In this document: positions 40,744 to 63,980 of the stretch, in pieces
Position numbering within the stretch: the first letter of the stretch is position 1
Layout of the letters: the number at the start of each line of letters is the position of its first letter
Assembly (NCBI RefSeq): GCF_005298075.1
Contig: NZ_SZZH01000001.1
Location: forward strand, 1,364,001-1,428,000
Direction of reading: 5' to 3'
Origin: Nakamurella flava
Lineage (GTDB): Bacteria; Actinomycetota; Actinomycetes; Mycobacteriales; Nakamurellaceae
Length of the DNA stretch: 64,000 nucleotides
The notes under the pieces: generated by a model
Told to the model about the DNA's origin: nothing
Databases searched by the model: none
The model's input: the letters and a program-made list of their open reading frames with translations, nothing else
Program-made: the position numbers and the translations under genes

Positions 40744-42099
40744 ATGGTCGCCAACGTTCGCCGTTCCCGGCGCTGGTCCCGGCTGCTGGTGCGCTCCGGG
40801 GTGATCGCCGGGTTCGGTCTCGGGCTCTGGTGCGCGGGTGCGGCGACCGCTGGGGCGTCGGAACTGCCTGCCACCGGCGAGGTCTCGTCGGTGGTGCAGG
40901 AGGTGTCCGATGCGGTGCCGGCCCCGGGCGTGCTGTCCCTTCCGACCGCTGATTCCGAGGCCGGCTCGAATGCCGGGTCGGCGTCTGCACCGGCTGAGCC
41001 GGTCCCGGCCGAACCGGAATCCGCAGATACGGGCGATCACGACTCGACAGTCGTGGCGGACACCTGGGTGTCCGACACAGCGAGCGACATCAGCGCTGAC
41101 GTGACGGATCTGGTGCCCGAGCAGGTGGTGGAGCCGGTCGTCGAGATCAGTGAGCCGGTCGTCGAGGACGTGGTCGAGCCGGCCGCGGAGCCGGTGTCAA
41201 CGATCACCGAGCCGGTCGTGCAGGACATCGTGGAACCGAATGTCGAGCCGGTGGTCGAGGACGTGGTCGAGCCGGTCGTCGAGGACGTGTCGGAGGCGGT
41301 GGAGCCGGTGACGGCTCCGGTGCTCGAGACGGTGACCGATGAGGTCGTCGAGCCGGTCACCGGAACGGTCGGACCGATCGTGAGTGGCGTGGTCGAACCC
41401 ATCGTCGACGCCGTCGGCGGCGGCCTGATCGACCCGGTCATCGACACGGTCGAGCCGGTGGTCACTCCCGTCCCGGGCACCTCCCCCGGCCTGCCGGGTC
41501 TGCCCGGCTTCCCGGGCATGCTCGGCTCTCCCGCTCTGCCCAGCATTCCGGGTCTGCCGCTGGGAGCGGTCGTGACCCCGGTCGTGGACCTGGAGGCCGC
41601 CGCTCCGGCTTCCTCTGACACCACTGCCACTGCCGCTTCCGCAGTCGAGCTCCGGCTCGCTCCCGCACTCGTGGTCGCCGGAGCGCCGATCTCGTTCGAC
41701 CCGGAAATGGTCGCGGCGCCGACCGCTGACCTCACCGCCTCGGTGACAGCCGGCCCCGCGGGTGGCGCATTCCTCGCGGTCGTCGGTGCCCCGTTCGACA
41801 CGTCCACCGGGGCCGACGAGCCGTCCACCGTGACCGGGCCGGTGGCCGCTGCGGTGGCCGTGGTTCCGGCTGGGGCCGGTGATGCACCGGTCGCGCTGGC
41901 AGCCCCGCTGGGGGGCCCGCCGGTCCCGGGATGCGCCAACGGCGCCGCCGGCGGCAGCAGCGGCAGTTCCGGCGGCACCAGCGCCGCGACCCTGAGCGCG
42001 TGGGCCACGGTCCCGGCTCAGCCCACCGACGCGGCGGTCCGATCCGCCGATCTGATCCTGCCGGCCCTGCCGGTCCGGCCGGACGTCTCGCCCGACTGA
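40744..42099 (+). CDS. Secreted Val/Glu/Pro-repeat surface protein
   Basis: The 451-residue protein has a signal peptide (basic RRSRRWSRLLVR, hydrophobic core, AGASE cleavage region near 38). Residues about 125-250 are built from short repeats of EPVVE/EPV/DVVEP type, then a Pro/Gly stretch (PGLPGLPGFPGMLGSP), then an Ala/Val-rich and a Gly/Ser-rich tail with one Cys. No enzyme motif or sortase signal is seen. It is probably an extracellular or wall-associated structural protein. It precedes the chaplin-like gene by 163 bp, and both may be surface components. Confidence 0.8.
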   Translation: MVANVRRSRRWSRLLVRSGVIAGFGLGLWCAGAATAGASELPATGEVSSVVQEVSDAVPAPGVLSLPTADSEAGSNAGSASAPAEPVPAEPESADTGDHDSTVVADTWVSDTASDISADVTDLVPEQVVEPVVEISEPVVEDVVEPAAEPVSTITEPVVQDIVEPNVEPVVEDVVEPVVEDVSEAVEPVTAPVLETVTDEVVEPVTGTVGPIVSGVVEPIVDAVGGGLIDPVIDTVEPVVTPVPGTSPGLPGLPGFPGMLGSPALPSIPGLPLGAVVTPVVDLEAAAPASSDTTATAASAVELRLAPALVVAGAPISFDPEMVAAPTADLTASVTAGPAGGAFLAVVGAPFDTSTGADEPSTVTGPVAAAVAVVPAGAGDAPVALAAPLGGPPVPGCANGAAGGSSGSSGGTSAATLSAWATVPAQPTDAAVRSADLILPALPVRPDVSPD

Positions 42100-42262
42100 C
42101 CGCTCTCCCGATCGCCCCACCCACGCTTGTGGGCCGGAGGTGTCGTGACCCAGCAACGTGCTCTCTCACCGTTCGGTCGGACCCACCCCTGTGGTCCTCG
42201 TCGCCGCTGATCCTCCGCGGCACCCGTACACACACGTTCTGTCTTCTCGGGAGAAACCCACC

Positions 42263-44050
42263 ATGAACGCCTGGATGTCGCGCGGCCTGCTGTTGGCAGG
42301 CATCAGCGCCAGTTCCCTGCTCCTGGGCGCCGGACTCGCCTCCGCCGCCGAGGACTCACCCACCACCGACCTGTCCATCGAGGTCACCGGCCCGACGCAC
42401 CACGATCAGGACGTCACCGTCCTGGACGCCCCGATCACCATTTCCGACACCGACATCGAGGTCCTCACCCACCGCACCAGTTCTGGCTCGGACGACCACG
42501 ACTCCAGCGGCGGGAGTGGCGGGCACGGCGACGCCGCACTCGTCGACGCTCCGGTCACCGTCGACGACGTCGATGTGGACGTCCTGACCCATGGCTCCGA
42601 AACGGCCCCGGCCGGGGACTCCACCGGATCCGACGACTCCTCGGAGTCCGCCAGTTCCTGGTCGTCCGGGGACGGCGGTTCCGTGGCCGATGCCCCGGTC
42701 ACCGTCACCGACGTCGACATCGACGTCCTGACCCATGACTCCGCCTCGGGTGAGGACCTCAGCGGATCCGGCGGCTCCTCGGAATCCGACGAGTCCTGGG
42801 AATCCAGTGACGGCGGGTCCGTCGTCGATGCCCCGGTCACCGTCGACGACGTCGATGTGGACGTCCTGACCGACCAGTCCAGCGGCGCGCAGTCACCGGC
42901 GGAAGAGCCCGCGCCGGCCGACCCGGCCCCCGCGAGCGATGACACGGGCCTGGTCGACGTCCCGGTCACCGTCACCGACCTCGATGTCGACGTCCTGACC
43001 CACCGGGACGACGGCGACCAGCTGCCCGCTGAGGAACCCGCCCCGTCGGACCCGGCCGATCCCGCTCCGGCTGATCCGGCACCCGGCAATGACAATGCGG
43101 TCGGCATCCCGGTCACCGTCTGCGGTATCGCGGTCGGCGTCGCCGGCGACACCTCCGCGGACTGCGCCCCCACCGCCGGATCCACCGGGGACATCGTCAA
43201 CGCCCCCGTCACCGTCTGCGGGATCGGCGCCGGCATCCTGGGCGACGCCACTGGGCACTGCGCCCAGACCGGTCACACCGATGAGGGCGGCACCCCGGTC
43301 GTCGACATCCCGGTCACCGTCTGCGGTATCAGCGCCGGCATCCTCGGTGACGCCGACAGCGACTGCACCGGCACCACCCCCGGCGGGGCCACCGACGGTC
43401 CGGGCCTGATCGACGTCCCGGTCACCGTCTGCGGCGTCAGCGCCGGCATCCTCGGCAACGCCGACGGCACCTGCACCACCGGCGGAACGCCGGGCGGACC
43501 GGGCGTCATCGACCTCCCCGTCGAGGTCTGCGGTATTGGCATCGGCATCCTCGGTGACGCCGACGCCGACTGCACCACACCGGGCACCAACCCGACTGAT
43601 CCGACCAACCCCGCGAACCCGACCGACCCGACTGATCCGACCGACCCCACGAACCCGACCGACCCCACGAACCCGACCAGCCCTACGAACCCGACCAGCC
43701 CCACCGAGCCGTCGCACCCGGACACCCCGACCGGACCCGGATCCCCGGCCCTGCCCACCACCCCGACCGACTCGACCCCCGCGGTCGGTCAGCCCAGCGG
43801 CGGCGCACCCCGCTTCGTCCAACAGGTCCCCGCCCGCCCCACCATCACCACGGGCGGCCGCACCATTGCTCCCCGCTCGGCCGCGGTCACCGCTCGCCCG
43901 ATGACCACCGTGATCACGCCCCGCCCGGCAACCACCGGCACCGGGGCGCTCGCCTCCACCGGAGTCCCCGCCGGCGAGCTCGCTCTCCTGGGGCTGCTGC
44001 TGGTCTTGGCCGGCGTCGTCCTCACGATGCGCCGCCGCCGCGTGCAGTGA
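42263..44050 (+). CDS. Ten-module chaplin-like protein with LAxTG sortase motif
   Basis: The 595-residue protein has a signal peptide ending ASAAED (about 29). Ten copies of a common module follow. Five are acidic and Cys-free (such as DAPVTVDDVDVDVLTH), separated by Ser/Asp-rich linkers. Five carry a Cys pair (such as IPVTVCGISAGILGDADSDC), with 13 residues between the Cys, recalling the chaplin pattern PVNVCGN...C. A Pro/Thr/Asn linker (NPTDPTNP repeats) leads to LASTG, a hydrophobic helix and RRRR. LAxTG is the class E sortase signal of long chaplins. The protein should be covalently attached to the wall. Confidence 0.85.
   Translation: MNAWMSRGLLLAGISASSLLLGAGLASAAEDSPTTDLSIEVTGPTHHDQDVTVLDAPITISDTDIEVLTHRTSSGSDDHDSSGGSGGHGDAALVDAPVTVDDVDVDVLTHGSETAPAGDSTGSDDSSESASSWSSGDGGSVADAPVTVTDVDIDVLTHDSASGEDLSGSGGSSESDESWESSDGGSVVDAPVTVDDVDVDVLTDQSSGAQSPAEEPAPADPAPASDDTGLVDVPVTVTDLDVDVLTHRDDGDQLPAEEPAPSDPADPAPADPAPGNDNAVGIPVTVCGIAVGVAGDTSADCAPTAGSTGDIVNAPVTVCGIGAGILGDATGHCAQTGHTDEGGTPVVDIPVTVCGISAGILGDADSDCTGTTPGGATDGPGLIDVPVTVCGVSAGILGNADGTCTTGGTPGGPGVIDLPVEVCGIGIGILGDADADCTTPGTNPTDPTNPANPTDPTDPTDPTNPTDPTNPTSPTNPTSPTEPSHPDTPTGPGSPALPTTPTDSTPAVGQPSGGAPRFVQQVPARPTITTGGRTIAPRSAAVTARPMTTVITPRPATTGTGALASTGVPAGELALLGLLLVLAGVVLTMRRRRVQ
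43590..43720 (+). repeat. Pro/Thr/Asn/Asp-rich tandem repeat (wall-spanning linker)
   Basis: Short units coding NPTDPT, NPTNPT and NPTSPT variants are repeated in frame inside the chaplin-like gene. Such regular proline-rich stretches span the cell wall in sortase-anchored proteins. The DNA units (ACCCGACC-type) are prone to slippage, so copy number may vary between strains. Confidence 0.75.
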
Positions 44051-54425: not shown

Positions 54426-55115
54426 TCAGTCGAAGGTCGGGTCCTCGGAGCGTGTGCGCTTGAGCTCGAAGAAGTGCGGATACTCGGCCAGGGTCACCGA
54501 CGCGTCCCACAGCTTGCCGGCCTCCTCGCCGCGCGGGATCCGGGTCAGCACGGGTCCGAAGAAGGCGATGCCGTTGATGTGGATGGTCGGCGTGCCGACG
54601 TCGTCGCCGACCGCGTCCATCCCGGCATGGTGGCTGGCCCGCAGGGTGGCGTCCAGCGCGTCCGACCCGGCCGCGTCGGCCAGGTCGGCCGGGAGGTCCA
54701 GCTCGGCCAGCGACTGCTCGATGACCGACGGCAGGTCCTTGTTGTTCTGGTTGTGGATACGCGTGCCCATCGCGGTGTAGAGCGGGGACAGGATCTCGTC
54801 GCCCTTGAGTTCCGCCGCGGCGATGGCCACCCGCACCGGGCCCCACGCCTTGGTCATCAGCCGCTGGTAGTTCTCCGGGAGGTCCCGGCCCTCGTTCAGC
54901 ACGGACAGGCTCATCACGTGGAAGTGCACCTCGATGTCGCGGACCTTCTCGACCTCGAGGATCCAGCGGGAGGTGATCCAGCAGAACGGGCACAGCGGAT
55001 CGAACCAGAAATCGGCGCGGTCCTTGCCGCCGGCCGCGGCCTGCTGGTCGGCGTGGGCGGCCTCCGCGGCCGGGTCGTGCGCGGTGGACGAGGGGACGGA
55101 GCTGGTGTCGGTCAT
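54426..55115 (-). CDS. Mycothiol-dependent DsbA-like oxidoreductase (Rv2466c-like)
   Basis: The 229-residue protein matches the Rv2466c family almost throughout: [20 protein letters not shown] (active-site Cys42-Pro-Phe-Cys45), [57 protein letters not shown] and the C-terminal [14 protein letters not shown]. Rv2466c is a mycothiol-dependent reductase that also activates nitro prodrugs. This variant has a 30-residue Ala/Gln-rich N-terminal extension. GGGAG precedes ATG 55115. Divergent from pepN as in mycobacteria. Confidence 0.95.
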
Positions 55116-55298: not shown

Positions 55299-57872
55299 AT
55301 GGTGCAGACCCCGAACCTCACCCGCGATCAGGCGACCGAACGGTCGGAGATCGTACGAACCGACAGCTACGACATCCAGTTGGACGTCACCGACGGGGCC
55401 GGCGGCCCCGGGACGAAGACCTTCGCCACCCGCACCACCCTCCGGTTCGGCGCGACGGCCGGCGCCTCGACCTTTGTGGACTTCGTCGGCGACGGCATCC
55501 GGTCGGCCACCCTCAACGGTCGCGCCCTGGACGTCGACGGCTGGACCAACGTCGGCGGTCTGGCGCTGCCCGACCTGGCCGACGACAACGAGCTCGTCGT
55601 GGACGCCGACGGCCTTTACACCAACAGTGGCGAGGGCCTGCACCGCTTCGTCGACCCGGTCGACGGGCAGACCTACCTCTACACGCAGTTCGAGACGGCG
55701 GACGCCAAGCGGATGTTCGCCTGCTTCGACCAGCCCGATCTCAAGGCCCGCTTCACCGTCACCGTGACCGCCCCGGCGGGCTGGCACGTCGTCTCCAACG
55801 GCGCCGCCTCCGGTGACCCGGAGGACGGTCCGGCCGGATCGCAGGTGCACCGGTTCGTCACCACCGAGCCGATGAGCACCTACATCACCGCGCTCGTCGC
55901 CGGCCCGTACCACGTGGTCCGGGACTCCCACGACGGGATCGACCTCGGGCTCTACTGCCGGGCGACGCTGGCCGAGTTCCTGGACGCCGAGCGGCTTTTC
56001 ACCGAGACCAAGCAGGGCTTCGACTTCTACCACCGGAACTTCGGCATCCGGTACCCGTTCGGCAAGTACGACCAGCTGTTCGTCCCCGAGTTCAACGCCG
56101 GGGCCATGGAGAACGCCGGTTGCGTCACCTACCGCGAGGAGTACGTCTTCCGCTCGCGGGTGACCCGCTACCTCTACGAGCGGCGCTGCGAGACGGTGCT
56201 GCACGAGATGGCCCACATGTGGTTCGGCGACCTGGTGACGATGCGGTGGTGGGACGACCTGTGGCTGAACGAGTCGTTCGCCACCTGGGCGTCCGTGCTG
56301 TGCCAGGCCTCGGCCACCGAGTACACGAGCGCCTGGACGACGTTCGCCAGCGTCGAGAAGTCGTGGGCGTACGTGCAGGACCAGCTGCCGTCGACGCACC
56401 CGATCTCGGCGGACATGGTCGATCTGCGGGCGGTCGAGGTGAACTTCGACGGGATCACCTACGCCAAGGGCGCGAGCGTCCTCAAGCAGCTCGCCGCCTA
56501 CGTCGGGCTCGAGGAGTTCCTGTCCGGTCTGCGCCACTACTTCCAGGCCCACCAGTTCGGCAACGCCACGCTGGCCGACCTGCTGTCCGCACTGGAGGAG
56601 ACCTCCGGTCGCGACCTGGGCGAGTGGTCCAGGGCCTGGTTGACCACCACCGGCATCAACACGATCAGCGCGGACTTCGACACCGAGACCGGCGAGGACG
56701 GGGCGGAGGTCTTCAGCCGCTTCGAGCTCGTCCAGCACGGCGCCGAACCGGGCGCCGGGGAACTGCGGCCGCACCGGCTCGCCGTCGGTGTCTACGACAC
56801 CACCGAGGCCGGCGCGTTGAAGCGGATCAAGCGGGTCGAGCTGGACGTCACCACCGAACGCACCCCGGTGCCGGATCTGGTGGGCACGCCGCGCGGCCGG
56901 CTGGTGCTGGTCAACGACGACGACCTGACCTATTGCAAGGCCCGGCTGGACGCCGACTCACTCAGCACGGTCATCGAGGGCATCGGGACGGTCGGCGACT
57001 CGCTGGCGCGCACGCTGCTGTGGTCGGCGGTGTGGGAGATGACCCGTGACGGGTTGATGCGGGCCCGGGACTTCATCACCCTGGCCGCCCGCGGCATGCA
57101 GAACGAGGACCAGAGCGGCGTGCTCGAGCGCGTCTACGCGCAGCTCCAGTTGTCGGTCGGTGCCTACGCCGACCCGGCCTGGGCGGCCGAGGAAGGCTGG
57201 CCGCAGGTCCGTCGGGCGCTGCTGGACGCGGCGCTCGGGGCGGAACCGGGCAGCGACACCCAGCTGTCGGCCGTTCAGGCCCTGGCCGCCTGCTCGCTGA
57301 GCCCCGACGAACTGGACGTCATCGCCGGCTGGCGGTCGGGCGAACGACCCCTGCCCGGCCTCACCGTCGACACCGACCTGTCCTGGACCCTCCTCGGGGC
57401 GCTGGTCGCGCACGGGCGCGCCGGTGCCGGCGAGATCGACGAGGCCGCCGCAGCCGACGCGACCGCCTCCGGCGAGCGCCGTGCGGTACAGGCCCGGGCG
57501 CTGGTTCCCACCGCGGAGAACAAGCGCGCGGTGTGGGATCAGATCTTCGGGGAGGACACCCTGGCCAACGCCCTGGTGAACGCGGCGATGGCCGGCTTCG
57601 CCCACCCCGCCCAGACCGAGTTGCTGCTGCCGTACACCGAGCAGTACTTCGAGCAGGTGCCGGCCCTGTGGGAGGGCCGGTCGTCGGAGATCGCCAAGCG
57701 GGTCACCACCGGGCTCTACCCGAGGTGGGACGTCTCGGAGCGGACGGCCGAGCTGGCCCGCGCCTTCGAGGCCGGTGACGCCCAGCAGCCGGCACGGCGA
57801 CTGGTCTCCGAGGGCCGGGCCGGGACCGAGCGGGCTCTGCGGGCACGCGCCGCGGACGCCGGCTCCCGCTGA
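55299..57872 (+). CDS. pepN: Aminopeptidase N (M1 metallopeptidase)
   Basis: The 857-residue protein has the M1 layout: N-terminal beta domain, exopeptidase motif GAMENAG (about 268), zinc motif HEMAHMWFGDLVT with the downstream Glu in LWLNESFATW, and an ERAP1-like C-terminal helical domain. Length matches actinobacterial PepN. It removes N-terminal residues from peptides in the cytoplasm. GAAGGA lies before ATG 55299. Order and orientation relative to the Rv2466c-like and DUF5130 genes match M. tuberculosis Rv2466c-Rv2467-Rv2468c. Confidence 0.97.
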   Translation: MVQTPNLTRDQATERSEIVRTDSYDIQLDVTDGAGGPGTKTFATRTTLRFGATAGASTFVDFVGDGIRSATLNGRALDVDGWTNVGGLALPDLADDNELVVDADGLYTNSGEGLHRFVDPVDGQTYLYTQFETADAKRMFACFDQPDLKARFTVTVTAPAGWHVVSNGAASGDPEDGPAGSQVHRFVTTEPMSTYITALVAGPYHVVRDSHDGIDLGLYCRATLAEFLDAERLFTETKQGFDFYHRNFGIRYPFGKYDQLFVPEFNAGAMENAGCVTYREEYVFRSRVTRYLYERRCETVLHEMAHMWFGDLVTMRWWDDLWLNESFATWASVLCQASATEYTSAWTTFASVEKSWAYVQDQLPSTHPISADMVDLRAVEVNFDGITYAKGASVLKQLAAYVGLEEFLSGLRHYFQAHQFGNATLADLLSALEETSGRDLGEWSRAWLTTTGINTISADFDTETGEDGAEVFSRFELVQHGAEPGAGELRPHRLAVGVYDTTEAGALKRIKRVELDVTTERTPVPDLVGTPRGRLVLVNDDDLTYCKARLDADSLSTVIEGIGTVGDSLARTLLWSAVWEMTRDGLMRARDFITLAARGMQNEDQSGVLERVYAQLQLSVGAYADPAWAAEEGWPQVRRALLDAALGAEPGSDTQLSAVQALAACSLSPDELDVIAGWRSGERPLPGLTVDTDLSWTLLGALVAHGRAGAGEIDEAAAADATASGERRAVQARALVPTAENKRAVWDQIFGEDTLANALVNAAMAGFAHPAQTELLLPYTEQYFEQVPALWEGRSSEIAKRVTTGLYPRWDVSERTAELARAFEAGDAQQPARRLVSEGRAGTERALRARAADAGSR

Positions 57873-57952: not shown

Positions 57953-58411
57953 CTACCAGGTGGCCCGTTCGGGCAGGATGCCAGCCTGGTCGGCGAGGAT
58001 CCGGACCCCGGTGGCCAGCGCCCCGGGAAGGTCGCCCTCGGAGCACGACGCCACGACCGCGAGCACGGCCAGCCGGGCGGCCCGGTCACTGACCCGCCGG
58101 ACGGCCTCGGTACCGGTCACGACCTCGACGACGTGCTGGCCGGGTGAGACGGCGAGCAGCACGGCCGACGGCGCGTCGGCGCCCAGACCCGATAGCAAGT
58201 TGTCCGCGGTGGCCCGGGTGTTCTCCCCCAGGTCGCCCAGGTAGACCGAGAACCGCAGACCGGTGGACAGCTCGGCGCGGTAGATGACGTCGTCGAGGAA
58301 CTCACGCTGGGAGGACGTCAGGGGCTCCCGGACCGCCGGGGTCGGGCCGACCTGCGGATCCCAGTTGCCCAGGGCGGACGGGTTGGCGACGGCTACTTCA
58401 CCATGTGCCAC
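57953..58411 (-). CDS. DUF5130 (TPM-like) protein
   Basis: The 152-residue protein contains the actinobacterial DUF5130 pattern: LTSSQREFLDDVIYRAELSTGLRFSVYLGDLG (cited as EFLDDVIYRAELSTGLRFSV), VLLAVSPGQHVVEVVTG and AVLAVVASCSEGDLPGAL. It resembles the TPM/phosphatase-like fold of unknown function. GTG 58411 follows GGAGG at 5 bp and is preferred over GTG 58423. It overlaps the 3' end of the small membrane gene at 58398. Equivalent to Rv2468c by position. Confidence 0.88.
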   Translation of the reverse strand: MAHGEVAVANPSALGNWDPQVGPTPAVREPLTSSQREFLDDVIYRAELSTGLRFSVYLGDLGENTRATADNLLSGLGADAPSAVLLAVSPGQHVVEVVTGTEAVRRVSDRAARLAVLAVVASCSEGDLPGALATGVRILADQAGILPERATW

Positions 58412-58637
58412 GGGCACCTCCACGAGTCGAGCCGGACGTGGCGGCCGCGCCGCCCGCGCCGGGAACCGCGACGGGCTGATCGCCCGCCCACCACTGCGGT
58501 GCGTACTGCCACTCCTGGCCGACCTTATAGGCCTGGTGCCGACGGGCTCGACCCGTCGTGAACACGAACAGAGCCATCCCCAGGTAGATGAGGACGGGAC
58601 CCCCGACGAAGACCAGGAGGGTCTGCAGGATCGTCAT
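58398..58637 (-). CDS. Small membrane protein coupled to DUF5130
   Basis: The 79-residue protein has one membrane helix (about 3-27) followed by GRARRHQAYKVGQEWQYAPQWW and a Gly/Ala-rich tail. The pairing of such a short protein with DUF5130 downstream of pepN is seen in other actinobacteria. Its last 14 bp overlap the DUF5130 start, so the two are translationally coupled. Function unknown. Confidence 0.78.
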   Translation of the reverse strand: MTILQTLLVFVGGPVLIYLGMALFVFTTGRARRHQAYKVGQEWQYAPQWWAGDQPVAVPGAGGAAATSGSTRGGARGTW

Positions 58638-58699: not shown

Positions 58700-60010
58700 C
58701 TAGCGCCCCGCCCCGTCCCCGGTCCCGCCGGTCGGGTCCGGGGCCGGCGCCTCGTCGTCCATTCCACGGGGCTCGGTCGACCAGAACGACCGGGCGACGG
58801 CCAGTCCGGCGACCGCGGTGACCACTCCGGCGATGAGGAACACCATCGGGACGCCCAGGTGCTCACCCAGCGTTCCCCCGAGACCGGCACCGATGGGCAG
58901 CACACCCCAGGCGACGACTCGGAACGCGCTCGAGACGCGGCCGATCATGGCGTGCGGGGTCTGGCGCTGGCGCCGGGTCGCCGACAACACGTTCCAGGTT
59001 CCCCCGGCCAACCCGAGCAGCGCGTAGGCGGCCAGCGCCACGCCCACGGCCGGCCATAGTCCCAGCAGGACCATCGCCAGGGCGAGGCCGGCGATGGCCA
59101 GCACCATGATCTGACCGCCGCGCAGGCGCCGCAGGAACCGGCCGACCAGGGCGGCGGCCAACAGCGTGCCGACGGAGTAGGCGGCCAGCAGGGTCGGGTA
59201 GAACTGCTCGGGCATCGCGAGCACCTGGGTGCTGTAGAGCACCAGCACCGCGTCGGCGGCCGCGTTCGCCATGGCCAGGACGGCGACGGTCAGCACCAGG
59301 GTGCGCAGCACGTCGTCCCGGACCAGGCGGGACAATCCGGCCCGGATGTCGGCGAGCGGATGGTCGGTCGAGGTGGTGTCGGGATCGCCGCGGGTCGCCG
59401 GCAACCGCAGGACGGCTGCGGTGGCGACGAGGAACGCGGCCGCCGAGAAGGCGAACGGCAACCACGGGGCGAGGACGAATAGCACACCCGCCGACAGCGG
59501 CCCGGCGAGATCCAGCGCCAGGGTCTCGACGGTGACGAAGCGGGCGTTGGCCCGTTCGAGCCCGTTCCGGGGGACGACCCGGAGCAGCAGGGTCTGCGAG
59601 GCGGCGTCGCCCATCGTCTCGACCGCGGTGATGGCGAAACCGACCACGCAGAGCGTGGCGATGCCCACGCCCGGCGAGAACGGCCCACCGCCCCGAGCCA
59701 GGCCCCCGGCGATCAGACCGACGACCGCCAGCGTCAACAGGGCACGCAGGAGGTGGGCGACGACGAGCAGGGTGCGCGCGTTGCGGCGGTCGACGAGCAC
59801 TCCGGCCGGTACGGCCAGCAGCAGCCAGGGCAGTGCGGTGATGGCGGCGACGAGACCGACCGCACCGGGAGAGGGATCGACCGACACCGTGAGAAGGGGC
59901 AACGCGACGACCCGGATGCCGTCCCCGGTCATCGAGCCGGTCCAGGACAGCACCAGACGGCGGAACTCCTGTCCGCCAACCGGCAAGGAGGCGGGCTCCG
60001 ACCTCGGCAC
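58700..60010 (-). CDS. MFS transporter, EntS-like exporter
   Basis: The 436-residue protein has twelve membrane helices and MFS loop motifs (GVLVDRRNARTLLVVAHLLRA, cited as GVLVDRRNARTLL, between helices 2 and 3; GRFLRRLRGG between 8 and 9). It resembles the EntS/MFS_3 group that exports siderophores or antibiotics. GTG 60010 has GGAGG upstream. No counterpart is expected at this place in the mycobacterial block. It lies next to the RGSRIG peptide genes and transcribes away from them, so it is a candidate exporter or immunity pump for them; that link is inference. Confidence 0.88.
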   Translation of the reverse strand: MPRSEPASLPVGGQEFRRLVLSWTGSMTGDGIRVVALPLLTVSVDPSPGAVGLVAAITALPWLLLAVPAGVLVDRRNARTLLVVAHLLRALLTLAVVGLIAGGLARGGGPFSPGVGIATLCVVGFAITAVETMGDAASQTLLLRVVPRNGLERANARFVTVETLALDLAGPLSAGVLFVLAPWLPFAFSAAAFLVATAAVLRLPATRGDPDTTSTDHPLADIRAGLSRLVRDDVLRTLVLTVAVLAMANAAADAVLVLYSTQVLAMPEQFYPTLLAAYSVGTLLAAALVGRFLRRLRGGQIMVLAIAGLALAMVLLGLWPAVGVALAAYALLGLAGGTWNVLSATRRQRQTPHAMIGRVSSAFRVVAWGVLPIGAGLGGTLGEHLGVPMVFLIAGVVTAVAGLAVARSFWSTEPRGMDDEAPAPDPTGGTGDGAGR

Positions 60011-60040
60011 GCCCCTCCCATCCCGGCCGTCAAGGCACTG

Positions 60041-60055
60041 TTCCAGTAGGTGGAA
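60041..60055. promoter_or_regulatory. Operator-like dyad TTCCA-N5-TGGAA before MFS gene
   Basis: TTCCA (60041-60045) and TGGAA (60051-60055) form a short dyad 31-45 bp upstream of the MFS start, in the gap between the MFS gene and the minus-strand ORF at 60062. A regulator gene for it is not obvious nearby. Confidence 0.4.
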
Positions 60056-60061
60056 TCCCCT

Positions 60062-60376
60062 CTAGGGTGAACCCAGCCACCAACGGATTACGTCTGATCG
60101 GGTGATCCCGACCGATTGCAAGTCGAAATCGCTCGGTTGCACATCACCATGGCCCGCTACCGTCACCGACGGTAAGGCATCGGCGGGGCCAATCAGGTAC
60201 CTGCCGGAAGGCCCCGCATAGTATTCGGTTGTCCCCAAGAGATGTCCGAAGAGCTCACAACCATTGTGTCTCAACAGGTTTCCAATGGCAAATGGCGCGC
60301 ACTCCGATGCAGCCCAGCCGGCGGCTCCCGCCAGAATTTCTCTTTCCGGACACCACGGACAGCAACGAAGACCCAT
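60062..60376 (-). CDS. Low-GC hypothetical ORF with CCPWC motif
   Basis: From ATG 60376 a 104-residue protein is encoded: MGLRCCPWCPEREILAGAAG at the start, then NLLRHNGCELFGHLLG and TTEYYAGPSGRYLIG, ending DVIRWWLGSP. It is not recognised. Third codon positions are only about half G/C, unlike all neighbours, so either the frame is not coding or it was acquired from elsewhere. It runs toward the MFS gene (51 bp gap). Its start is only 18 bp from the start of the RGSRIG peptide 1 gene on the other strand, leaving no room for two separate promoters. Confidence 0.35.
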   Translation of the reverse strand: MGLRCCPWCPEREILAGAAGWAASECAPFAIGNLLRHNGCELFGHLLGTTEYYAGPSGRYLIGPADALPSVTVAGHGDVQPSDFDLQSVGITRSDVIRWWLGSP

Positions 60377-60394
60377 CACCCCAAGGAGTGCCTC

Positions 60395-60526
60395 ATGTCG
60401 GACATCGCCCGCACCGCCCAGTTGACCGTCACTCGCGGTTCGCGTATCGGCCGGGGTTCCCGCATCGGCCGCGGCTCGCGCATCGGCCGTGGCTCGCGCA
60501 TCGGTCGCGGCTCGCGCATCGGCTGA
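60395..60526 (+). CDS. RGSRIG repeat peptide 1 (43 residues)
   Basis: AAGGAG lies 6 bp before ATG 60395. The peptide is MSDIARTAQLTVT followed by exactly five RGSRIG hexapeptides and TGA. The repeat tail is strongly cationic (10 Arg in 30 residues), lacks acidic, aromatic and Cys residues, and has no membrane segment. Codons vary among units (CGC/CGG/CGT, GGT/GGC, TCG/TCC) but every change is synonymous. This pattern indicates a translated, selected product. Candidates are a multi-core ribosomal precursor peptide cut at Arg, a cationic antimicrobial peptide, or a nucleic-acid-binding peptide; none can be proved here. Confidence 0.75.
   Translation: MSDIARTAQLTVTRGSRIGRGSRIGRGSRIGRGSRIGRGSRIG
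60434..60523 (+). repeat. 18-bp tandem repeat array 1 (5 units)
   Basis: Five direct 18-bp units (consensus CGCGGCTCGCGCATCGGC) encode RGSRIG. Units are contiguous with no spacers. Substitutions fall only at synonymous positions. Confidence 0.95.
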
Positions 60527-60639
60527 CCCACCCGAACCGACCGGCTCCCGTAGTACCCCGCCTCCGGCGGCGGCCACGGTCGCTCCCGACCGGCAGGCCC
60601 TCTGATCTGCACTGACACCCTCAGACCCAGGAGAACGAC

Positions 60640-60753
60640 ATGACCTCGAACACCATCACCCGTGGATCCCGCATCGGCCGTGGCTCGCGTATCGGCCGTG
60701 GCTCGCGCATCGGCCGTGGCTCGCGCATCGGCCGTGGATCCCGTATCGGCTGA
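60640..60753 (+). CDS. RGSRIG repeat peptide 2 (37 residues)
   Basis: AGGAG lies 8 bp before ATG 60640. The peptide is MTSNTIT followed by exactly five RGSRIG units and TGA. The leader differs from that of peptide 1 apart from the shared Thr just before the repeats, while the repeat tail is identical at amino-acid level. All five units begin with CGT, and the first and last carry GGA TCC where the middle three have GGC TCG, so the array is not a recent copy of array 1. The two genes are 113 bp apart, same strand, probably co-transcribed. Length preservation at five units in both copies suggests a functional constraint. Confidence 0.75.
   Translation: MTSNTITRGSRIGRGSRIGRGSRIGRGSRIGRGSRIG
60661..60750 (+). 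repeat. 18-bp tandem repeat array 2 (5 units)
   Basis: Five contiguous 18-bp units (consensus CGTGGCTCGCGCATCGGC) encode RGSRIG. Differences from array 1 are again all synonymous. Confidence 0.95.
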
Positions 60754-60766
60754 CCAACTGCCCGTG

Positions 60767-60792
60767 AACCCACCGACCGTTTCGGATGGGTT
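60767..60792 (+). terminator. Weak hairpin after RGSRIG genes
   Basis: AACCCA (60767-60772) pairs with TGGGTT (60787-60792), with CCGA/TCGG pairing possible inside. It lies 13 bp after the stop of peptide 2 and is followed by TTTG. It may end the peptide transcript before the convergent HNH gene. Confidence 0.5.
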
Positions 60793-60887
60793 TGTCCCCC
60801 AGTCGAGTGAACCCCTCCTGAACGAAGTGTCGCCGACGCGCCGCGACCCGTTCAGCACAGCTTCACCGTCCAGTACAGCTCCACCGG

Positions 60888-61541
60888 TCAGGCCACGGCT
60901 CCGAGCCACGGTTCCCAGACCGGATCGGCCTCGTCGGCCGCGAACATCGCACCCAGAGGTCCCCGCCGTGGCACCGTCGGCGGTATCCGCAGCGTCCAGC
61001 CCAGCTCGGACAGCAGCCGGTCGGCCTTTCGGGTGTTGCACCGAAGACAGCACGCGACGCAGTTCTCCCAGGAATGCCCGCCTCCGCGGCTCCGGGGAAC
61101 GATGTGATCGACCGTTTCTCCCCGCCCACCGCAGTAGGCACAGCGCCGCCCGTCCCGTCGCAGCACCCCGGCCCGCGTGACCGCCGGAGGCGGCTGGAAC
61201 GGCACCCGGACGTAACGGCGGAGCCGCACCACCGCCGGAACAGCCATCTGCGCCGACGGCGAATGCAGCACCGGGCCGTCGCGCTCGAGAACACATTCGG
61301 CCTTGCCGGCTACCACCAGGACCACCGCCCGGCGTCCCGGAACCACCGACAGCGGTTCGTGGCTCGCGTTCAGCAGCAGCGCACGGACCAGACCAGGCGT
61401 CGCGACGACCAACGTCCCGACGACCGCGCCCGGCACCGGCGGATCGCTCCCCGGTCCGACGACGTCCACCGGGCCGTTCACCGCGACCGGCAGGGCGGCA
61501 GCCGCTCCTCGCCCCGCGGTCGATCGCCGGCGATCGCTCAC
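60888..61541 (-). CDS. HNH endonuclease, conserved actinobacterial type (Rv2469c-like)
   Basis: The 217-residue protein has the N-terminal segment ALLLNASHEPLSVVPGRRAV and a C-terminal HNH domain: CAYCGGRGETVDHIVPRSRGG (CxxC, DHIVPRSRGG) followed by WENCVACCLRCNTRKADR (N and CxxC). Zinc-binding Cys pairs and the catalytic DH are intact. This is the single-copy HNH gene found beside pepN/glbO in many actinobacteria, with a suspected DNA-repair or restriction-like role. GTG 61541 gives the usual length; GTG 61550 is possible. Confidence 0.88.
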   Translation of the reverse strand: MSDRRRSTAGRGAAAALPVAVNGPVDVVGPGSDPPVPGAVVGTLVVATPGLVRALLLNASHEPLSVVPGRRAVVLVVAGKAECVLERDGPVLHSPSAQMAVPAVVRLRRYVRVPFQPPPAVTRAGVLRRDGRRCAYCGGRGETVDHIVPRSRGGGHSWENCVACCLRCNTRKADRLLSELGWTLRIPPTVPRRGPLGAMFAADEADPVWEPWLGAVA

Positions 61542-61904
61542 GTGCCACACCCCCACTCCCGTCAGGCCGGACCGGCATCGCCGACCGGCCGACGACCGGG
61601 GGCGATGCGACGTCCGACAAACGCGAGGTGCAGCACCCCGCGTGTACGCATGGGACCACTGGCCAGAAGAGTAGCGCCGTGTTCGCCCCGCGCCCGTGGC
61701 ATTTGCCCGGAACGCAGCCTGCGGCGGCCGGTGGTTCGACGGCTCCCCCGCTCGGCGAATCGCGCGGCGACCGCCGGGCCCATTCCGCCCGTTCCCTGAC
61801 CGCCTCGTCCCCGGGGTCCCTCTCCCCCGAGCGCGCCATGACCCGGCTGCCCGTCCGACTACCGTGTCCGCCGTGAACCGATCGCTGCCATCCCGGTCCT
61901 GCCC
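61542..61904. other. Divergent intergenic region between HNH and MscS genes
   Basis: About 360 bp with no convincing frame. It must hold the promoters of both divergent genes. I see short GC-rich dyads (for example around 61585-61606, GGCCGGACCGG / CCGACCGGCC) but nothing assignable. Confidence 0.4.
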
Positions 61905-62894
61905 GTGGACGTGACCGCACCCGACTGCGCCGCCGACGCCGGTTCGGTCTGCGCCTGGGTCTGGAACAACACCGGCCTGGACCTGCTGGCCCGCAACGCC
62001 GACCGCGTCGTCGGCGGCGCGTGGCACATCGTGCTCATCGTCGTCGTCGCCCTGGTGCTGCGGTGGCTCGCGTACCGGGTGATCAACCGGGTGGCCGGAC
62101 TCACCGCGCAGGGCACCCCGCCGGCGATGCTGCGTCCGCTCCGGCAGATGCCGCTCCGCAACCGGATCACCCGAGGGGTGTCGGCCGAACGCCGACGTCA
62201 GCGGGCGCTGGCGGTGGGTTCGCTACTGAGGTCCGTCGTCTCCTTCCTCATCCTCGGCACCGCTTCGGTCCTGGTCCTCGCCGAGCTCGGCATCGACGTC
62301 GCCCCGCTCCTGGCGTCGGCCGGGATCCTCGGGGTCGCCCTGGCCTTCGGCGCCCAGAACCTGGTCAAGGACTTCCTGTCCGGGCTGTTCCTGACCCTGG
62401 AGGACCAGTTCGGGGTCGGCGACACCGTCGACCTGGGTGCCGCCACCGGCGTGGTCACCGAGGTCGGCCTGCGCACCACCACCGTGCGAGCCGGCGACGG
62501 CACCATCTGGCACGTCCGCAACGGGGAGATCCTGCGGGTCGGCAACTCCAGCCAGGGCGAGGCGGTCGTCTCGGTGGATCTGGTGATGCCGTACGACGCG
62601 GACGTCGCCAAGGCCACCGAGGTGGCGCAGCGGGAATCGGACCTGGTCGCCGATCAGGCCGACTGGGCCGAGAAGGTCGTCGAGCGGCCCGCCGTGGTCG
62701 GGATCGCCGCCGTGGGCCCCGGGACGGTTACCCTGCGCGTCACCGCCACGGTGCGCAGCGGAGACCAGGATGCGTTCGCCCGCGCCCTCCGGGCCGCCAT
62801 CCGGGTCGGTTTCGACGCCGCCCGGAACGAGAACCCGGCGTGGGACTTCCGGCCGCCGGCTCCGGCCGGCGAGCGCGGGACAATGGACCGGTGA
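61905..62894 (+). CDS. MscS-family mechanosensitive channel
   Basis: The 329-residue protein has three or four N-terminal membrane helices. The pore helix TM3 ([27 protein letters not shown], cited as [19 protein letters not shown]) matches the MscS core A/G-rich helix. The cytoplasmic beta domain has [11 protein letters not shown] and [18 protein letters not shown]. It protects against hypo-osmotic shock. Start GTG 61905 or 61911. It ends in a GTGA overlap with glbO. Confidence 0.92.
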
Positions 62895-63328
62895 GCGACT
62901 CCCGTCCCCCCGCCCTCGGCCCCCTCACCCCGGCGTCCCCGCCGCCGGCGAGCCCCGGTTCGTTCTACGAGGAGGTCGGCGGCGCCGAGGTGTTCGCCGG
63001 CATCGTCCACCGGTTCTACGAGGTGGTCGCCGACGACCCGGTCCTGCGCCCGCTGTACCCGGAGGAGGATCTGGGTCCGGCCGAGGTGCGGCTCCGCCTG
63101 TTCCTCGAGCAGTACTGGGGTGGTCCACGCACCTACTCCGAGCAGCGCGGACATCCCCGGCTGCGGATGCGGCACGCCCCGTTCGCGATCGGGCACCGCG
63201 AGAAGGAGCACTGGCTGGCCGCCATGCGGGTCGGGGTCGACGGCGCGGGGCTCACCCCGCCGCAGTACGAGCGGCTGTGGGCGTACCTGGAGATGGCCGC
63301 CGAGAGCCTGGTCAACCGCCCGCACTGA
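62891..63328 (+). CDS. glbO: Group II truncated hemoglobin
   Basis: The 145-residue protein has a 20-residue Pro-rich lead and a 2/2 globin fold with the TrHbII signature: [37 protein letters not shown] (distal Trp region) and the proximal His in [14 protein letters not shown]. It binds O2/NO and supports respiration or NO detoxification. Start GTG 62891 overlaps the MscS stop (GTGA). Same order as M. tuberculosis Rv2469c-glbO, with MscS inserted. Confidence 0.95.
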
Positions 63329-63350: not shown

Positions 63351-63980
63351 TCAGAGCAGCAGCGGCAGGAGCGAGTGCCGTCGGCGGACCACCGCGCCGT
63401 ACCGGGCGTCGATCCGCGCCCAGGCATCGGTCGCGCTGATCCGCACCGTCTCCCCCGCGGCCGACGGCGCGAAACCCATGCCGGACAGGGCGAACAGCAT
63501 CCGCAGGCTGATCGGCACCCGCATCCCCTGACCGGTCACCGTCAGCACCTCGGTGTCCAGCAGTGCCGTGGACGCCGCACCCATGGGCCCGGGGCGGGCC
63601 TTGGCGCCGGTGGCCCCGTCGGCGGCGAGGTCGGCGAGCACGTCGGCCGGCACCTCGTCGACGACGACCCATCCCGAACGCGGCGGCAACTGTGACCGCC
63701 ACTGGGCGTCGACGCGCACCCCGGGGTCGACCCGTTCGGATCGGGCGACGGCCAGCCCGGCGAGCAGATTGCCGGCCAGCACGGTGATGTCGGTCGGGTC
63801 GACGGTGCCGCTGATCGCCCGCGTGACCAGGGCGTCGAACGGCGTCCCCGCCCAGATCCGGACCAGGTCACCGTCGGCGCGCAGCCGCACCGCGCCGGCC
63901 GGGTCCCAGCGGGCGACGCGGCCGACGAACGCCGTCGCATCGGACCGGTCGGCGTCCTGCGCCGGCAACAGGAACGTCAC
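63351..63980 (-). CDS. Conserved hypothetical protein
   Basis: The 209-residue soluble protein (GTG 63980) has strands VARWDPAGAVRLRADGDLVRIW (core GAVRLRADGDLVRIWA), the helix TDITVLAGNLLAGLAVAR, WVVVDEVPADVLADLA and a C-terminal DAWARIDARYGAVVRRRHSLLPLLL (end HSLLPLLL). This looks like an actinobacterial conserved protein of unknown function found near pepN/glbO loci, but I cannot name a family. It ends 22 bp from the convergent glbO stop. The true start could lie beyond the window edge. Confidence 0.7.
   Translation of the reverse strand: MTFLLPAQDADRSDATAFVGRVARWDPAGAVRLRADGDLVRIWAGTPFDALVTRAISGTVDPTDITVLAGNLLAGLAVARSERVDPGVRVDAQWRSQLPPRSGWVVVDEVPADVLADLAADGATGAKARPGPMGAASTALLDTEVLTVTGQGMRVPISLRMLFALSGMGFAPSAAGETVRISATDAWARIDARYGAVVRRRHSLLPLLL

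Follow-up and report, generated by a model that had tools for sequence, protein, structure and literature searches.

Tiny motif-repeat proteins beside an HNH endonuclease-like gene in Nakamurella and Pseudonocardiaceae: an apparently undescribed family

Left-handed beta-helix (LbH) proteins of the transferase hexapeptide type (Pfam Hexapep, PF00132) follow the rule [LIV]-[GAED]-x2-[STAV]-x. The array proteins described here share the six-residue period, and most of their tandem units in Nakamurella obey this rule, whereas they have no transferase domain, are only 37-43 aa long in the DNA studied, carry a constant arginine that would point outward, and are not fixed in unit length; in Pseudonocardiaceae they have T or N where the rule requires G, A, E or D. 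ASCIZ is a eukaryotic multi-motif hub with many LC8-binding TQT motifs. Such hubs resemble the arrays in presenting many short strand-like motifs on variable linkers, but ASCIZ is eukaryotic, with another motif and partner. Precursors of multi-core ribosomal peptides (RiPPs) share a short leader and repeated identical cores, but the arrays combine a lax leader with mostly single-residue linkers, and no modifying enzyme was seen nearby. RGG/RG-box RNA-binding regions are rich in Arg-Gly, as are most Nakamurella members, but neither RG nor positive charge is conserved across the array family. Finally, many array proteins end in DYALAA, DFALAA or EYALAA, much like the tmRNA (ssrA) tags of these families (EFALAA, DFALAA or EYALAA); in the arrays, however, the tail is encoded in the gene itself, and it is absent from the Nakamurella members read.

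No model naming the array family was found in Pfam, NCBIfam, PHROGs or PADLOC. The only matches over a curated cut-off were Hexapep for some Nakamurella hexamers and DUF2345/DUF3540 for one Solihabitans array (L153), all of repeat type; NCBIfam and PHROGs gave weak repeat-type matches and PADLOC gave none. A search of open-access literature at the level of titles and abstract openings found no description of the family, and the motif letters occur in papers whose titles look unrelated. The first-pass annotation, which knew of no described family with this unit, agrees with the four databases and with the literature as far as it was covered, and the family of tiny motif-repeat proteins is apparently undescribed so far.

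The two mini-genes and their surroundings

The window, i.e. the whole stretch of 64,000 nucleotides of Nakamurella flava DNA that was analysed, contains the features listed in Table 1. Two tandem genes of 43 and 37 codons had been annotated, each with a good ribosome site and each ending in five exact RGSRIG hexapeptides; coordinates and translation confirmed both genes, and Shine-Dalgarno-like sites are present ahead of each. ORF1 has an alternative longer in-frame start at 60242 (94 aa), but the start in Table 1 is favoured: it has a Shine-Dalgarno site, and the homologs also start short. Both peptides have a net charge of +10.

Table 1. Array genes and neighbouring genes in the window (positions within the window)
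Feature	Position	Strand	Remark
Rv2466c-like mycothiol-dependent nitroreductase	54426-55115	-	conserved neighbourhood
M1 aminopeptidase (PepN-like)	55299-57872	+	conserved neighbourhood
DUF5130 gene	57953-58423	-	conserved neighbourhood
ctaJ, aa3-type cytochrome oxidase subunit	58398-58637	-	79 aa; NCBIfam NF050118 above cut-off
MFS transporter gene	58700-60010	-	divergent from array genes
Shine-Dalgarno-like site of ORF1	60383-60388	+	AAGGAG
ORF1	60395-60526	+	43 aa: leader MSDIARTAQLTVT, (RGSRIG)5, stop
ORF1 repeat	60434-60523	+	five 18-bp RGSRIG units, stop codon directly after
Shine-Dalgarno-like site of ORF2	60629-60633	+	AGGAG
ORF2	60640-60753	+	37 aa: leader MTSNTIT, (RGSRIG)5, stop
ORF2 repeat	60661-60750	+	five 18-bp RGSRIG units
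HNH endonuclease-like gene	60888-61547	-	convergent with array genes; recurring neighbour in relatives; 5' coordinate is the edge of the translated segment, not a located start codon
MscS-type channel gene	61905-62894	+	homologs in L028, L035-L037
Bacterial-like (truncated) globin gene	62891-63328	+	conserved neighbourhood

The claim that all codon differences among the units are synonymous, with Ile always ATC, held over the ten units. The variable columns are 3, 6, 9, 12 and 18 of 18, all third codon positions (random placement of five variable columns would give this with a chance of 7e-4), and ATC was found in 10 of 10 units. The unit pattern CGNGGNTCNCGNATHGG had 11 matches in the whole genome, ten at the array genes and an isolated one elsewhere. 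Neither a promoter-like site on the + strand nor a terminator-like site was found at 60000-61000, and nothing in the window reached the Rfam gathering threshold. The gap between ORF2 and the HNH gene contains 2.2 copies of another 18-bp unit (60848-60886), which matches the coding units in period but not in sequence. Several longer tandem arrays with periods of 57, 138, 129, 99 and 36/18 bp occur at 41130-43733, perhaps in a gene for a repeat-rich protein.

On the side opposite the HNH gene, the order is a divergent ctaJ (window, L030 and L035-L037), DUF5130 and then the PepN-like gene. The ctaJ gene and the beginning of the DUF5130 ORF overlap, and CtaJ matches were also obtained in L030, L035, L036 and L037. 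An MFS gene intervenes between the array and the CtaJ/DUF5130 side in the window and in five of the six other Nakamurella loci (L028-L031 and L033); no homolog was found for L032 or for the three Pseudonocardiaceae loci compared. A 209-aa protein of the conserved neighbourhood (63351-63980, - strand) had no Pfam or NCBIfam match. The address beside ctaJ, the globin gene and the mycothiol reductase gene hints at respiration or redox.

Relatives, motif and genomic address

A search for (RGSRIG)n relatives in related actinobacteria, suggested with the first-pass annotation, found them in Nakamurella and Pseudonocardiaceae. In a protein search of 61 genomes (that of N. flava and relatives), 12 matched at E ≤ 0.001, and two of these were dropped as chance frames: G023, a Rho-like arginine-rich frame, and G006, where the match (L021) lay at another place in the genome and the true member at the HNH locus. 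Also rejected were a match in G222 (C19), which is another repeat, the true member there being L228, and the chance frame L159. The search of the order gave matches in 75 of 298 genomes (E ≤ 0.001); 28 loci were examined together with 12 further regions, and of these 12, four (in G132, G191, G234 and G250) held family arrays and eight did not. The class sample (345 genomes) and the phylum sample (346), which overlap each other and the order, gave 15 and 5 matching genomes at E ≤ 1e-5. The window genome is counted in both samples and G029 in that of the class; beyond the order, no true member was found in either. The 17 matching loci outside the order look like other repeats or other frames, and in none of them does a short leader precede repeats that run up to a stop (one locus is cut at its end). 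A phage or plasmid origin was set aside: the query L149 had no plasmid or phage match, within the limits of BLAST low-complexity filtering, and the one viral-contig match was an irregularly spaced frame, rich in R, T and G, at the end of its contig.

Within Nakamurella, an array stands beside the HNH gene in 11 of 17 genomes, one of them with partly unreadable arrays; none was found in the other six, three of which have a distant HNH match only, so that the address there is uncertain. The arrays include (RGTRVG)7, (RGARIG)6, (RGIRMG)4 and, in two genomes, six R/F-linked copies of GTRVG. Locus L032 of G012 has four tandem mini-genes of RAVRVG units with similar leaders, which is gene duplication instead of longer arrays. 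Among the best 80 of at least 568 HNH loci, all named, an array was found at 31: Amycolatopsis 16/16, Prauserella 4/4, Kutzneria 3/3, Kibdelosporangium 2/2, Nakamurella 2/3, Saccharomonospora, Labedaea and Solihabitans 1/1 each, and one unclassified metagenome-assembled genome (MAG). In the same 80, none was found in Pseudonocardia (0/19), Actinomycetospora (0/6), Actinophytocola (0/2), Haloechinothrix (0/1), Rhodococcus (0/6), Nocardia (0/3), mycobacteria (0/8) or three other MAGs; some of the contigs concerned break off early, and one- or two-copy forms could escape.

Because the named loci came from an HNH search and their address was thus preset, the address was checked with loci found independently of HNH. 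Counting only loci found via the array or its upstream element, a gene homologous to the HNH gene of the window is convergent to the array in 38 of 39 loci and 34 of 35 genomes, and the sole exception (L134) is cut by the contig end. The distance from the matched 3' end of the HNH gene to the array stop is 14-931 bases, some of the larger values reflecting several intervening array genes. The array genes are an apparently undescribed family found in Nakamurella and Pseudonocardiaceae with the same HNH neighbour.

Comparison of the arrays indicates that the working unit is the pentapeptide [GSA]-x-R-[VIMF]-[TGN] with a constant central arginine, here GSRIG. The proteins contain 2-51 motif copies on linkers of 1-24 residues, mostly a single residue, and motif starts are spaced mainly by 6, 7, 8 or 9 residues, differing by lineage. 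Each protein tallied uses one motif variant, except one mixing GTRVT and GTRVV (motif and codon tallies cover motif-matching units only). The variants are GSRIG, GTRVG, GARIG, AVRVG, GIRMG, GVRVG, GGRFG and GCRIG in Nakamurella, and GTRVT, GVRVT, SVRIT, GIRVN and GVRVN in Pseudonocardiaceae. Degenerate units occur inside some arrays (MDTPAT, GTQVT and GVPVT; AIPVG in Nakamurella). One Nakamurella genome has three copies of RGVRVG and another three of RGGRFG, joined by unlike S/T/A-rich spacers; the motif is therefore distinct from a mere DNA repeat. The other Nakamurella members tallied are 28-51 aa long with net charges of +5 to +13, while the family ranges from -7 (L228) to +66 (L264). The RG dipeptide occurs in most Nakamurella members and is absent from SVRIT arrays; the G012 units read RAVRVG. 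The acidic L228 (G222) has 20 SVRIT units, D-rich linkers and a DFSLAA tail.

Selection, tails and upstream element

Across 386 motif-matched Pseudonocardiaceae units, all four Gly codons, all four Thr codons and three of the four Val codons are used, and Arg is encoded by the four CGN codons and AGG, with one AGA. Arrays of equal length from four Amycolatopsis species differ pairwise at 15-24 of 84 synonymous sites and at 0 of 164-165 non-synonymous sites; for six further species the differences are 9-25 of 87-88 and 0-4 of 179-180, respectively. Summed over 21 non-independent Amycolatopsis pairs, the arrays differ at 390 of 1,819 synonymous and 19 of 3,681 non-synonymous sites, and the leaders of the same pairs at 35 of 359 and 90 of 1,216, respectively. 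Judged from these counts, constraint on the leader is much weaker than on the repeats. The leader changes at similar rates at both kinds of site; since its synonymous differences (0.10 per site) are fewer than those of the array (0.21), the leader DNA may itself be constrained.

Units of one array differ at third positions by means of 0.29-0.70 (24 arrays; random expectation 0.58), the lowest mean being that of the MAG array L164. Between species, units of the same index differ by 0.09-0.29 and those of other index by 0.59-0.65. Because units are near random within an array and yet agree by index between species, most are old and were not homogenised. From these comparisons, most arrays are old, their units keep their positions, and selection restricts them to a single peptide; the L164 array and parts of others look like more recent copying. 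The annotated selection on the peptide, not on DNA repeats, is thus supported by the synonymous-only variation of the units, by the ortholog comparison, in which the proposed check among homologs found non-synonymous changes nearly absent from the arrays, and by the near-saturated synonymous sites.

The named genes from the best 80 of at least 568 HNH loci have a C-terminal LAA in 17 of 31 cases, in the forms DYALAA, DYTLAA, DYSLAA, DFALAA, DFSLAA, EYALAA and QFELAA, and two Kutzneria arrays end in AA. In 14 genomes of both families (three of Nakamurella), the predicted tmRNA tags end in EFALAA, DFALAA or EYALAA, which the array tails resemble. The window genes end in RIG, and no ssrA-like tail was present in the Nakamurella members read. 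Members with an LAA tail would be quickly removed by ClpXP.

A Shine-Dalgarno-like site precedes all 33 genes read (having such a site was among the criteria by which the relatives' start codons were picked), and AGGAGG stands ahead of most Pseudonocardiaceae starts. At 71-74 bases ahead of the ATG, most named Pseudonocardiaceae genes have the conserved block TTCACCTGTACGG-R-CCTTGCG. With up to two mismatches allowed, 16 of the 20 Pseudonocardiaceae genomes searched have the block, always as a single match that lies at the array gene, and the other four have none; a regulon was therefore rejected, as no second site was found in the 20 genomes. An RNA element was likewise set aside, as the 5' region has no supported fold (19 sequences, four pairs, none compensatory); because no RNA fold is conserved, the block is more likely a promoter, an operator or a transcript start. 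The upstream element TTCACCTGTACGGRCCTTGCG of L149 and other Pseudonocardiaceae loci contains the near-palindrome CCTGTACGGG, a possible candidate operator of some regulator.

Readings of the arrays

We favour, at a probability of about 0.4, a multivalent motif array with one co-evolving candidate partner, a reading drawn from the sequence comparisons. Small, probably intracellular array proteins would present one motif 2-51 times, and the copies would act jointly by multivalency on the partner, as scaffold, sink or sensor, possibly with stacking of the array as a beta-solenoid; the place of one long array may be taken in Nakamurella by sets of short genes, of which there are two here and four in one relative. 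In favour of the multivalent array are motif copies that stay identical despite divergent linkers, the many linker lengths in long arrays, purifying selection on the motif, the recurring address, the translation signals, the upstream element matched only at the array gene, lineage-specific variants, the lax leader and the ssrA-like tails. Against it, forms with 2-3 motifs would be only weakly multivalent, no array was found in 6 of 17 Nakamurella genomes or at 19 of 19 Pseudonocardia loci, some arrays have degenerate units, the Nakamurella members read have no ssrA-like tails, and LbH-leaning searches or a three-motif limit of R-linked runs would make the repeat structural. These last points belong to the main rival, a rod in which the repeats stack as a three-sided (LbH-like) or related beta-helix, with V/I and a small residue inside and the constant arginines outside as ladders that would bind a regular polyanion or serve as scaffold. 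Such a rod is unlikely, though worth serious thought. At the Hexapep cut-off of 27, ORF1 (27.3), ORF2 (28.1), G007 (28.3) and G008 (36.1) passed, six permuted control hexamers failed (best 19.3), G004 reached 12.8, and G012, one G041 peptide and L149 had no match; ORF1 and ORF2 have neither a transferase domain nor several complete coils, being 43 and 37 aa without a further domain match. A PDB sequence search gave 10 of 10 chains with the Pseudonocardiaceae profile (E 0.0027 to 8.6) and 7 of 8 with an idealised GTRVT array that we take, from the chain names, to be of hexapeptide/LbH type, but the E-values are weak, and of three permuted GTRVT arrays one also drew mainly LbH-type chains (6 of 11; the other two 0 of 2 each). 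The 8-residue Solihabitans array scored 42.4 with DUF2345 (cut-off 30.7) and 32.9 with DUF3540 (27.9) and weakly matched VgrG models, all of which are presumably beta-helix proteins. The best pointer, a hint, to a three-strand structural unit is that R-linked runs seldom exceed three motifs: runs of length 1, 2 and ≥3 number 95, 103 and 4 in 38 distinct GTRVT arrays and 95, 44 and about 36 in shuffled arrays, counts that are not a probability because the 38 arrays are related. The rod is opposed by the T or N of the Pseudonocardiaceae units and by L149, by motif spacings of 6, 7, 8 or 9 across lineages, and by Nakamurella members that have 2-3 copies (in two cases with spacers of 8-11 residues) and cannot build a solenoid alone. 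The 7-9-residue spacings and the low-copy forms suggest that fold is not the conserved property. Both the multivalent array and the solenoid make the arginine-centred strand the contact unit.

The readings of the first-pass annotation as a RiPP precursor, an antimicrobial or an RG-type binder fit poorly, because the leader is lax, no modifying enzyme was seen among the neighbours examined and charge is not conserved. A cationic peptide of RG/RGG type that binds nucleic acid or forms condensates appears improbable: the window peptides are indeed cationic, the Nakamurella members tallied are basic, mostly with RG pairs, and one has RGGRFGF motifs, but RG and charge are not kept in the family (SVRIT arrays, RAVRVG in G012, net -7 to +66), and a binder driven by composition should not need a motif and order this strict. 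We also hold it quite improbable that the arrays are precursors, either of a multi-core RiPP or of a signal freed by proteolysis, perhaps by ClpXP acting on the ssrA-like tail and by the neighbouring aminopeptidase. The leader with identical repeated cores, the lineage-specific core variants and the PepN-like gene of the conserved neighbourhood would suit a precursor, but constraint is much lower in the leader than in the repeats, the linkers are mostly single residues, no hydrophobic signal sequence is apparent by eye, and no RiPP enzyme was found in ten scanned window neighbours or among the recurring neighbours listed for nine syntenic loci, which are the same genes; neither leader nor enzyme supports the RiPP claim. 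That the units are tandem repeats of neutral DNA, or an array bound at the DNA level and open by chance, would be extremely improbable. They are 18-bp tandem units, and GC-rich DNA is often open on both strands, but the 386 (motif-chosen) units draw freely on synonymous codons, CGN and AGG among them, ortholog non-synonymous changes are nearly absent and most arrays are near synonymous saturation. A neutral minisatellite was rejected, since the changes respect codons and the likeness of the units does not come from recent copying alone.

In conclusion, a nearly pure-repeat protein with almost no amino-acid change, whose copies are mostly near synonymous saturation, is a rare case of a functional unit legible in the sequence. 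Tentatively, and at less than even odds, the arrays may represent an undescribed regulatory or scaffold class, a counterpart of eukaryotic multi-motif hubs, in which a lineage-specific pentapeptide is presented 2-51 times, motif and receptor are switched wholesale between lineages, and in many species a genome-encoded near-copy of the tmRNA-tag end serves for destruction on demand. With its built-in ssrA-like tail, such a protein would be a clear example from nature of turnover regulated through ClpXP. Since the functional unit can be read from sequence as one pentapeptide, a synthetic peptide would allow a direct test of the presumed interaction in Amycolatopsis, an antibiotic-producing genus.
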